Source: Acidobacteriota bacterium
GTDB lineage: Bacteria > Acidobacteriota > Terriglobia > Acidiferrales > UBA7541
Length of the DNA: 45,561 nt
Direction: 5' to 3'
NCBI GenBank assembly: GCA_013286165.1
Contig: JABDGF010000013.1
Location: 1-45,561 of the forward strand
The position numbers and the translations under genes are program-made. The first letter of the stretch is position 1; each line of letters opens with the position of its first letter. This document shows, one piece after another, positions 16,278 to 19,756 of the stretch. Under the pieces are notes generated by a model. The model did no database searches, was not told where the DNA came from, and was given only the letters and a program-made list of their open reading frames with translations.

Positions 16278-17015
16278 ATGGCGACGACAGAACTGATTCA
16301 CGAAATTATTCCCGTCGGAATGTTGCAGTGTAATTGTTCGATTCTCGGCGACCCGGTTACGCGCGAGGCGCTGGTGGTGGACCCGGGCGACGACGTGGAT
16401 CGCATTCTGGCGATATTGCGGAAACACAATCTCACGGTGCGCGCGATTATCAGCACGCATACGCATATCGATCACGTGGGTGGGCTCGCGCAATTGCACG
16501 CAGTGACGGGCGCTCCGGTACTGATTCACGAAGCAGATATGCCGCTGTACGAAAATCTTGAGGAGCAGGCGCGGTTTTTGGGCGGGCCCACGCCGCCATC
16601 GACGAGGATCGACGAATACGTGAAGGATGGTGACACGCTGCGATGGGGGCGTTATACCGCGCGAGTGATACATACGCCGGGGCATACCCCGGGCAGCATC
16701 ACGCTTTTTTCGGATGCGGCGCGCGCGACGGAGCGTTCGGAGCGCGAGAGTGGCGGGCCACTCACGCGGGCGCATGCTGCGAAGAGCGATGTGATTGTGG
16801 AGGCTGCGTCGCCGCTGCTGATTGCGGGCGACACACTGTTTCAGGGGAGCATTGGTCGCACGGATTTGTGGGGCGGCTCGATGAAGGAAATCTTGCGCTC
16901 AATCCACGAGAAGTTGCTCGTGCTACCGGAAGCCACGCGCGTGATCGCCGGCCACGGAGACGAAACCACCATCGGCGCTGAGCGCGAAGAGAATCCCTTT
17001 CTGAATCGCCGGTAA
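16278..17015 (+). CDS. Glyoxalase II-like metallo-beta-lactamase-fold hydrolase
   Basis: 245 residues from the ATG at 16278. A GTG 45 bases upstream is possible, but MATTELIHEIIPVGMLQCNC fits the family N-terminus. The dinuclear metal site is intact: THTHIDHVGG (His61, His63, Asp65, His66), then HTPGHTPGS, AGDTLFQG and AGHGDET. The likely reaction is hydrolysis of a thioester such as S-lactoylglutathione or a related substrate. An insertion of about 30 polar residues (ATERSERESGGPLTRAHA region, about 155-185) between HTPGH and AGDTLF is unusual for the short glyoxalase II group. No Shine-Dalgarno sequence is evident. Confidence 0.9.
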   Translation: MATTELIHEIIPVGMLQCNCSILGDPVTREALVVDPGDDVDRILAILRKHNLTVRAIISTHTHIDHVGGLAQLHAVTGAPVLIHEADMPLYENLEEQARFLGGPTPPSTRIDEYVKDGDTLRWGRYTARVIHTPGHTPGSITLFSDAARATERSERESGGPLTRAHAAKSDVIVEAASPLLIAGDTLFQGSIGRTDLWGGSMKEILRSIHEKLLVLPEATRVIAGHGDETTIGAEREENPFLNRR

Positions 17016-17167: not shown

Positions 17168-19036
17168 TTAGGCGTGCACGTCTTTGACGTGCGTGGCCAG
17201 GGACCAAAGGTTGCCGTAGGGGTCGAGGACCGTGGCGGTGCGGTCGCCGTAGGGCGCGTCTTCCAGGCCGCGGACGCTGGTGGCGCCTGCCGCCAGCGCG
17301 TTTGCATACACTTCGTCCACGTTGGGAATGTACACGTGCATCAGGAAGGGAATGAGCTTGCGTTCGTGCGGGCCGCCGGAGATTAGTTCCCCGCCACCGA
17401 GCTGCGAGTCTCCGATGCGGATGCGGCTGTGCTGCACGACGCCGTCGGGCGATCTGTGCGTGAAAATTTCCTCGGCGCCAAATGCACGCTTCAAGAACTC
17501 AATGTAGCCCGGCGCATCTTTCACCGTGAAGCCCGGCACCAGCGAAGGAGTGTTCGCGGTGATGTGTTCACCCTTGCCGCGATTGCTCAGGCACCAGATC
17601 ACGCCACCCGGGCTGACGACTACGCCGTCGCGATCGCCCCACGGCTTGGTGCTCACCCGGTACATGCTGGTGCCGCCACCCGCTAGTGCGCGCGCGTACG
17701 CAGCGTCGGGATCGGGGACATACAGAATATTCATCATGCCGCGAGCGGGAAATTCCGCACTCGCGTCCGAAAGCTCGACGACGGCGTCGCCAACCTGCAT
17801 CTGCGCGTGCATGATGCGGTCGCCCATCGGCACGCGGAATTTTTCCGTCGCGCCGAGGCCGCTCTTCATGAATTCGATTTCTTTGTCGGCGCCGTTCACG
17901 AGCAGGTAGGGCGTGAGCGTGCGGAAGCCGGGGCGAATGTAGCTGACTTTTGATTCGGAACTTGAAGCGGAAGCGCTAGGCGCCTGCTTCTGCGTGGTGA
18001 TCGCGGGGCGATGCGCGCGTGTGGGAGAGGCCATGTACCAGCGGTTGCCGAAGGGATCGGCGACGCTTCCCACGTAATCTCCGTAGGGCATCGCGGCCGG
18101 CGCGGCAACGGAGGTTGCTCCTGCGCCGACCGCCCGGTCGTACGCCGCGTCCACGTCGTTCACATAAGTGTAGAGCATCGCTGGCAGCGGAGCCTGCCCT
18201 GCGTGGAGATCGCTCATCTCAATCACAGAATCGCCCACGCGCATTTTCGCGTGATGCACACTGCCGCCAGCTTCGAAGCGAATGATTTCCTCGGCACCTA
18301 GCGCTTGCTTCGCGAAAGCCAACATCTCTGCGGCGCTATTCGGGAGCAAATAGACCGTCACGTCGGACATTTCGGGCAGCCAGTGCGTCTTGCCCTTCTC
18401 GGGCGTGGCGATGTACCAATTGTTGCCGCTCGCGTCGATGACGGCGGCGGCACGCTCGCCATAATTCATGTCCTGTGGTGCGTGAAGGGACTTCGCTCCA
18501 GCCGCAAGCGCGCGCTCGTACACTTCGTCGGAATTATCGACGCGGACGTGGAGCGCGGCGGGGAACCACGGCCCTTCCGGCGAGCTGCCCATCATCAATT
18601 GCGCGTTGCCGATGCGCACTTCGGCATGGAGGCGGCCGCCCGGACCTTTCACTTCTTCGGTGACGTTGGCGTGGAAGGTCTGCTTCACAAATTCCAGGAG
18701 CGATGCCGCATCCTTCACCGTGAGGTACGGAGTGACGGTGCGGTAGCCTTCGGGGCGCGAGAACGATTCACGCGCGGGCTGCTTCGTCTCAAAGGTCGAT
18801 GCTTGCGTCGAAGTCGCAGTCGATGTGCTGGCCATTTTCGCTGTCCTCTCCAGATCGGCTTTCAATCGAAGCTTGAAATCATTTGTAGGCAAGCCGCGCA
18901 ACTGATCCGCGATGGGAATCAGCGGCGCGACCTCCGCGTCCGGCGCTGCACCGTCGCCGCGCAGCATGAGCGAATCCCTAGCCAGTACGGCGTCGATCGC
19001 CCGATCGAGTTGTTCGAAGAGAATGGGGTTATCCAT
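17168..19036 (-). CDS. Four-domain VOC (PhnB/glyoxalase-like) protein with anti-sigma-like N-terminus
   Basis: 622 residues. The ATG at 19036 is preferred over a GTG at 19045 because AGGTGAGG lies immediately upstream. Residues 1-70 are a helical segment (FEQLDRAIDAVLAR ... LRGLPTNDFKLRLKADLER) that I associate with cytoplasmic partner domains of ECF sigma factors. A Ser/Thr linker follows, then four VOC modules at about 100-217, 228-341, 368-485 and 492-615. Each has PYL/FTVKDA-like starts, H-A-(E/K/Q)-(V/M) strands and an end such as DPFGNRWYMAS or DPYGNLWSLAT. The gene overlaps the sigma gene upstream by 8 bases, so the pair is translationally coupled. I infer a ligand-sensing regulator of the sigma factor. 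It could instead be a multidomain enzyme or resistance protein. Four tandem VOC domains are uncommon. Confidence 0.88.
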   Translation of the reverse strand: MDNPILFEQLDRAIDAVLARDSLMLRGDGAAPDAEVAPLIPIADQLRGLPTNDFKLRLKADLERTAKMASTSTATSTQASTFETKQPARESFSRPEGYRTVTPYLTVKDAASLLEFVKQTFHANVTEEVKGPGGRLHAEVRIGNAQLMMGSSPEGPWFPAALHVRVDNSDEVYERALAAGAKSLHAPQDMNYGERAAAVIDASGNNWYIATPEKGKTHWLPEMSDVTVYLLPNSAAEMLAFAKQALGAEEIIRFEAGGSVHHAKMRVGDSVIEMSDLHAGQAPLPAMLYTYVNDVDAAYDRAVGAGATSVAAPAAMPYGDYVGSVADPFGNRWYMASPTRAHRPAITTQKQAPSASASSSESKVSYIRPGFRTLTPYLLVNGADKEIEFMKSGLGATEKFRVPMGDRIMHAQMQVGDAVVELSDASAEFPARGMMNILYVPDPDAAYARALAGGGTSMYRVSTKPWGDRDGVVVSPGGVIWCLSNRGKGEHITANTPSLVPGFTVKDAPGYIEFLKRAFGAEEIFTHRSPDGVVQHSRIRIGDSQLGGGELISGGPHERKLIPFLMHVYIPNVDEVYANALAAGATSVRGLEDAPYGDRTATVLDPYGNLWSLATHVKDVHA

Positions 19037-19589
19037 GGGCCTCACCTGATTTCCTCGGCGCCTGTTTCGACACCTCGGCCCTCAATGCAGCGAGTCCGCG
19101 AAACTGCAACTGTTTTACCGCTCCTTCCGTTTTGCCCAGCTCTTGCGCGATTTCCTTCACGCTCTTTTCGTGCGCGAAGCGGAGTTGCACCACGCGCTTC
19201 TGATCTTCCGGCAGGCAGTCCACGAGCCGGAAAAGCTGCGCGCGAACTTCGAGTTCTTCGGGATTTGGCTCGGAGCTCGTGGCTTCGGCGGACTCGGTGC
19301 CGAACTCGCGCGCCAGGCGGCGCCACCGATCAGCCAGAGCGTTCGAGGCGATGCGCATCAGCCACGCACCGAACGGAGCGCCGCGCCACTCGAACTTCGA
19401 AAGATTGGCCAGAGCGTGATGAAACACCTCGGACGTAACGTCTTCGGCAGCGGCCCGGTCGCGCACACGTCTGCAGACGTAGGCGTACACGCGCTCGAAG
19501 TGGCGCTCATAGAGCTCGCCGAAACGGCCAGGGTCCAGCTTGGCCGCGTCGATCAGCTCCCGTTCTTCGGTTTCGGTGAAAACCTTCAA
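19029..19589 (-). CDS. ECF RNA polymerase sigma factor
   Basis: About 186-190 residues. Region 2 is seen in FGELYERHFERVYAYVCRRV, AAEDVTSEVF and APFGAWLMRIASNALADRWRR. Region 4 is seen in LPEDQKRVVQLRFAHE, SVKEIAQELGKTEGAVKQLQ and FRGLAALR. There is no ATG near the start. A TTG at 19589 has GGAG six bases upstream, and a TTG at 19601 is the alternative. It directs RNA polymerase to its own regulon. The overlapping downstream gene encodes the VOC protein with an anti-sigma-like N-terminus, so the sigma factor is probably controlled by it. The promoter region is shared with the divergent metallo-beta-lactamase gene (gap about 155 bases). Confidence 0.93.
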   Translation of the reverse strand: MKVFTETEERELIDAAKLDPGRFGELYERHFERVYAYVCRRVRDRAAAEDVTSEVFHHALANLSKFEWRGAPFGAWLMRIASNALADRWRRLAREFGTESAEATSSEPNPEELEVRAQLFRLVDCLPEDQKRVVQLRFAHEKSVKEIAQELGKTEGAVKQLQFRGLAALRAEVSKQAPRKSGEAHG

Positions 19590-19756
19590 CGGGGACTCCA
19601 AAATCTGGATCTCGGTATGGTAAACCGACGAGACTGCGAAAGGTTACGCAGCGTTGACACAAAAATTGGGCGGCGCGGAATCCGGCGGGAGGGACATGCA
19701 TCCGATTCAGCCGATAAAGCGGTGGGACAAATTTGAATTTTGAGAGGCGAGAACCC

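Follow-up and report, generated by a model that had tools for sequence, protein, structure and literature searches.

Results

The gene pair and its sigma factor

We analyzed a 45,561-nucleotide stretch of DNA (the window) from the draft genome of a soil acidobacterium; the draft is 55% complete (2.19 Mb in 120 contigs), and its named close relatives are metagenome-assembled genomes of Acidobacteria and Candidatus Acidiferrales. The minus strand of the window carries an operon of only two genes. The first, read from TTG 19601, encodes a BldN-like ECF sigma factor of 190 amino acids (19029 to 19601), and the second (17168 to 19036, start ATG 19036) encodes a protein of 622 amino acids, the long form, in which an anti-sigma-like domain is followed by four VOC domains. 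The two open reading frames overlap by exactly 8 bases (19029 to 19036), and AGGTGAGG lies directly 5' of ATG 19036. No ribosome site precedes TTG 19601, while a second TTG at 19589 has GGAG just 5' of it and is the better start; hence, the sigma protein probably begins there and has 186 amino acids. The N-terminal domain of the long form (residues 1 to 67; 18836 to 19036) is predicted to consist of three helices and is conserved in about 95 loci. Pfam and AlphaFold2 place the VOC domains at residues 100 to 216 (18389 to 18739), 225 to 342 (18011 to 18364), 373 to 490 (17567 to 17920), and 498 to 620 (17177 to 17545). Open reading frames, Pfam, and AlphaFold2 thus bear out the preliminary description of this DNA, which had reported the 8-base overlap, the 622-residue gene, its helical N terminus, and the four VOC domains. 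The same 8-bp overlap recurs across the class and the phylum, and the pair is therefore not a product of chance.

We looked downstream across the loci for a constant third member of the operon and found none; the next gene lies on the opposite strand in 43 loci and on the same strand in 35. In the window, a gene with a glyoxalase II-like metallo-beta-lactamase fold (16278 to 17015) is convergent to the VOC gene, and it is kept at the same-genus loci L038, L039, L041, and L042.

The sigma protein has the layout of an ECF factor, with Sigma70_r2 and r4/r4_2 as its only Pfam domains within 190 amino acids. Its top NCBIfam model is TIGR02952 (BldN family), with 132 bits; this score lies under the curated equivalog cut-off of 206 bits, and by this sequence measure the protein cannot be filed as BldN proper. 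The best PDB match is 6dxo_A (E-value, 5.6e−25), which we take to be the RsbN-BldN complex.

Predicted promoter and regulon

Conserved 5' of the sigma gene is a predicted promoter, CGTAAC-N16-GGTTTA (CGTAACCTTTCGCAGTCTCGTCGGTTTA; 19621 to 19648, minus strand), which the sigma factor would itself recognize. By sequence comparison it strongly resembles the published promoter consensus of sigma-BldN, CGTAACN16CGTTGA (PMC2375139), in agreement with a BldN-like sigma factor. The family motif, CGTAAC(C/T)TTT-N11-14-GTT(T/A), was found by strict pattern at 60 of 93 loci, and many of the others have small changes.

The motif is nearly unique to this position. The window promoter is the only match in the window and the sole exact match in the part of the genome examined. 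With a pattern ending in GTTWA, all 10 exact matches in 31 genomes were located at the genome's own sigma gene (the G004 locus is split over two contigs), as were 17 of 20 in 26 further genomes. Because 27 of the 30 pooled genome-wide exact matches are the operon's own promoter, the system seems to control mainly its own operon, with the VOC protein as the output; the matching was strict, and targets with looser sites would be missed. One-mismatch matches in the genus were no commoner than those of a reversed control, except in G015 and G003. Both genomes have a second CGTAAC-type site with one mismatch about 1.1 kb upstream (L044, 6122 to 7274, in G015; C284, 1796 to 2949, in G003), a possible extension of the regulon. 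At L044 this site lies 25 bp before a methyltransferase gene, and a small YjbR-like gene is located between the methyltransferase and sigma genes.

A divergent metallo-beta-lactamase gene had been suggested as a target of the sigma factor. We rejected it as a regulon member: a homologue lies beside only one other copy of the pair, in one other genome, and the promoter motif is not directed at the metallo-beta-lactamase gene but only at the sigma gene.

The N-terminal domain and its pairing with the sigma gene

Residues 1 to 92 of the VOC protein match no Pfam family, and profile searches with the N terminus against Pfam, NCBIfam, and PDB assigned no family. AlphaFold2 modeled helices at residues 4 to 18, 37 to 47, and 52 to 66 with low confidence. 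A fold search with this model returned weak helical matches only, and RsbN was recovered neither by sequence nor by fold. The domain has a signature of approximately LxEQLDxA(I/V)xALL...LAPLxxIAxxLRxLPRxxFKxRLKxxL, with the core LP..F+..L...L. The N termini of near relatives differ at codon positions 1, 2, and 3 in 99, 59, and 244 cases, respectively, over 761 codons, a bias that indicates a translated segment under purifying selection.

A profile of the domain matched 79 places in 74 of the 399 genomes of the class and gave matches in 9 of 396 phylum-wide genomes, the majority of the additional matches lying beyond the class. These searches and named records yielded about 95 nonredundant loci; the scan of the named close-relative genomes found nothing with a single protein as the query and worked with an alignment. 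In Acidobacteriota, a close relative of the sigma gene lies directly upstream of the domain in all but two of these loci, mostly with the identical 8-bp overlap. One exception, L039, is at a contig end. The other, L153 (2166 to 3641, in G089), encodes a three-VOC protein with a degenerate half N-terminal domain, has no sigma gene that we could find, and is probably a decaying copy. About 70 VOC loci that lack the N-terminal domain have no sigma match nearby.

The reverse search, with the sigma factor as the query, hit 77 places among 398 genomes. These coincide with the loci of the N-terminal domain save for G019, at a contig edge, and three loci with a reduced N terminus (L300, L301, and L302). 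The latter encode two-VOC proteins whose N terminus is cut to the last helix, and they have kept the sigma pairing as well as the internal ribosome site described below. The continued pairing at these loci hints that helix 3 by itself may be enough for contact with the sigma factor. Sigma genes kept beside a VOC gene without any N-terminal segment, which by the preliminary description would speak against the proposed switch, were sought in the 398 genomes and not found, the three reduced loci all retaining the last helix. In a Candidatus Binataceae record (L172, 3330 to 5497), a sigma gene is paired with the N terminus and three VOC domains; its branch is long and the internal start codon is missing, and the record may reflect transfer outside Acidobacteriota or a binning error.

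The VOC part

Pfam recognizes four Glyoxalase (PF00903) stretches in the VOC protein and AlphaFold2 predicts four VOC folds, which places the protein in the VOC superfamily. The nearest folds of the domains include plant glyoxalase I, Rv0577, and TioX. The tandem VOC protein Rv0577 (3oxh) and the single-VOC TioX (3itw) are alike in fold and repeat arrangement, and to our knowledge neither has an anti-sigma domain or a known sigma partner. The domains of the window protein are PhnB-like, with W-x-[IL]-A-T in place of I-E-L at the last Glu metal ligand as judged by motif alignment only.

VOC domains number two in 55 loci, three in 27, and four in 4. Four arose twice independently, in the lineage of the window and in L148 to L150. 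Two or three are usual, and the four repeats noted in the preliminary description are not essential. Since the number changes many times on the sigma tree, we regard the sigma factor and the N terminus, at the level of sequence, as the constant unit and the VOC part as a variable module. An extra single-VOC gene stands right behind a two-VOC fusion gene at L159 (2516 to 3025), L164 (5003 to 5596), and L170 (2433 to 2936), a possible step towards three-VOC fusions.

A predicted internal start codon in the VOC gene

A conserved ribosome site and start codon lie inside the reading frame of the long form. In the window, a Shine-Dalgarno-like sequence, GGAGAGGA (18844 to 18851, minus strand), occupies the position homologous to the AAGGAG of relatives and precedes ATG at residue 68 (18833 to 18835), from which a VOC-only product of 555 amino acids is predicted. 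The junction DNA of most relatives reads GAA AGG AGA NNN NNN ATG, which gives AAGGAG-N7-ATG/GTG with ideal spacing. The start codon is conserved in the 70 loci tested, as ATG in 65 and GTG in 5.

In every one of the 70 loci, the internal site is predicted to pair more strongly with 16S rRNA than synonymous recodings do on average (median, −8.7 versus −3.7 kcal/mol; Wilcoxon P = 3.6e−13, a pooled value inflated by the kinship of the sequences). A site as strong precedes 73 of 1,444 other in-frame ATG/GTG codons. With −6.4 kcal/mol against the family median of −8.7, the site of the window is not significant alone (P = 0.07). The site is retained where the encoded peptide differs or the position has shifted (L050 to L053, L106, L128, L133, L147, and L160); it is absent in the TonB variant described below and lacking in a few other members (L140, L158, and L172). 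Given the conservation of both ribosome site and start codon at the junction, a VOC-only protein is probably a second product of the gene. The internal site is stronger than the long-form site in 48 of 69 loci, and the VOC-only protein may therefore be the main product.

At L139 (2473 to 3526), about 40 bp of the junction are duplicated exactly and in tandem, which leaves an N-terminal open reading frame and a separate two-VOC open reading frame that starts at the internal start codon. This split could be natural or an assembly artifact. If it is no artifact, the putative anti-sigma domain exists there apart from the VOC domains, an arrangement not expected from a simple sensor-fusion model.

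Discussion

We favor, with moderate confidence, the view that the locus encodes a self-contained, autoregulated ECF sigma module whose second gene has two starts and specifies an anti-sigma long form and a VOC-only short form. We hypothesize that the BldN-like sigma factor recognizes the CGTAAC-N16-GTT promoter and thereby directs transcription of its own operon of two genes. Translation from the first start, which overlaps the end of the sigma gene, would produce the long form, in which a three-helix anti-sigma domain, possibly similar to that of RsbN (class III), is fused to the VOC domains. The long form would keep the sigma factor from acting as long as no small cytoplasmic compound is bound to the VOC part. 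From the second start, behind the conserved internal ribosome site, the VOC part would be made alone, and it would bind, sequester, or convert the same compound. More compound would free more sigma factor and hence lead to more VOC protein, together with more of the brake, and one gene would in this way provide both sensor and response. We are more hesitant about the general form of this proposal, in which a widespread ECF module uses two conserved starts in one gene to make a ligand-sensing anti-sigma factor and a ligand-handling effector and the sigma factor has essentially no target but its own operon; this we offer as a tentative generalization, somewhat more open to doubt than to acceptance.

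Is the internal site used for translation, or is it a relic? The N-terminal domain could derive from a once separate anti-sigma gene that became joined, in frame, to a VOC gene, and the long protein alone could matter today. Free-standing tandem VOC relatives begin at the equivalent Met and have their own ribosome site there, which makes a fusion origin likely. However, the site has been kept over long divergence, through changes of residue and position, replacement of ATG by GTG, and erosion of the N terminus, while its surroundings change, and we consider it unlikely that the site is only a remnant.

We see a similarly small chance that the VOC part is a metabolite enzyme and that the anti-sigma domain couples the abundance of this enzyme to sigma activity without any sensing of a ligand. 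The number and sequence of the VOC domains vary freely while the N terminus and the sigma factor stay, and the operon is its own main target, both of which are consistent with an enzyme. The PhnB-like domains, however, have no obvious glyoxalase-type last metal ligand, as far as the motif can tell, and we prefer a VOC part that senses the compound.

The N terminus is encoded directly beside the sigma gene, and its role as an anti-sigma domain is supported by inference from the comparison of loci. In one sigma subclade (support, 98/94), the N-terminal domain is followed not by VOC domains but by a membrane helix, a Gly-rich stretch, and the C-terminal domain of TonB (L138, L142, L143, L146, L151, and L152). 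This is the usual layout of a membrane anti-sigma factor and supports the same assignment for the N terminus of the VOC proteins. Membrane-anchored or soluble inhibitors are also the commonest partners encoded beside ECF genes (PMC8103513). Both points argue against a co-activator, or a tether by which the VOC protein would be recruited to the sigma factor or to RNA polymerase, a role for which the evidence is the association with the sigma gene and which we judge to be quite improbable. The soluble one-component switch of the preliminary description therefore survives in part: strict pairing, the TonB variant, and purifying selection favor its anti-sigma N terminus, and its soluble VOC sensor is retained in our model, while the metallo-beta-lactamase target is given up.

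It is very improbable that the internal site merely follows from a conserved peptide, LERRxxM, for example in a sigma-binding helix, because, frequent as LERR and LQRR are at the end of helix 3, AGG or AGA accounts for 29 of the 39 Arg codons at the junction versus 62 of 572 elsewhere in the same genes, every site exceeds its synonymous mean, and versions with LEAK, LEWE, KGEH, LGGK, or FGGR retain a site. Both chance and the peptide were rejected as sources of the site by the synonymous shuffles.

The proposed anti-sigma module shares several features with the sigma-BldN/RsbN pair of Streptomyces, namely the closest sigma family, a similar predicted promoter (CGTAAC-N16-.GTT), and a partner with a short N terminus of three predicted helices. 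RsbN is membrane bound (PMC8103513), whereas the partner described here is soluble and carries VOC domains, its N terminus has no detectable sequence match to RsbN, and the regulon is apparently the operon itself. The control genomes contained no BldN/RsbN pair above the cut-off with which profiles could be compared directly. By analogy, the module may operate as a soluble counterpart of the BldN/RsbN pair; in view of the missing match to RsbN, we do not assign its putative anti-sigma part to class III. The SnoaL-like extensions fused to ECF41- and ECF56-type factors are small alpha+beta domains with a possible role in sensing compounds (PMC8999054), and these factors resemble our system in the coupling of an ECF factor to such a possible sensor. 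In those factors the domain is fused to the sigma factor itself, whereas the putative sensor described here stands alone as a protein, brings its own anti-sigma-like domain, and has an internal start in its gene. A gene with two starts is known from AerR of Rhodobacter capsulatus, which is made as long and short isoforms via an internal start (PMC6199135). In both cases one regulatory gene specifies two proteins with different N termini, the short one being a prediction here. AerR belongs to another protein family, and the internal start described here is conserved across many families and removes a whole putative sigma-binding domain. In our literature search, no anti-sigma factor of an ECF type was described as carrying VOC/glyoxalase domains or a conserved internal start, although the main ECF catalogue may list one.

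If our model is correct, the VOC protein is a testable anti-sigma factor with a modular VOC ligand sensor and may be a soluble counterpart of RsbN and its membrane-bound kind; the conserved internal start then allows one gene to supply both the brake and the effector. An annotation that chooses either start would miss one of the products. The near-uniqueness of the promoter suggests that the regulon of some ECF factors is about one operon; a whole circuit of this size would be easy to rebuild in Escherichia coli and could be used there to find the ligand. The TonB variant, finally, might connect an ECF factor with the energy transduction of TonB in a single anti-sigma protein.
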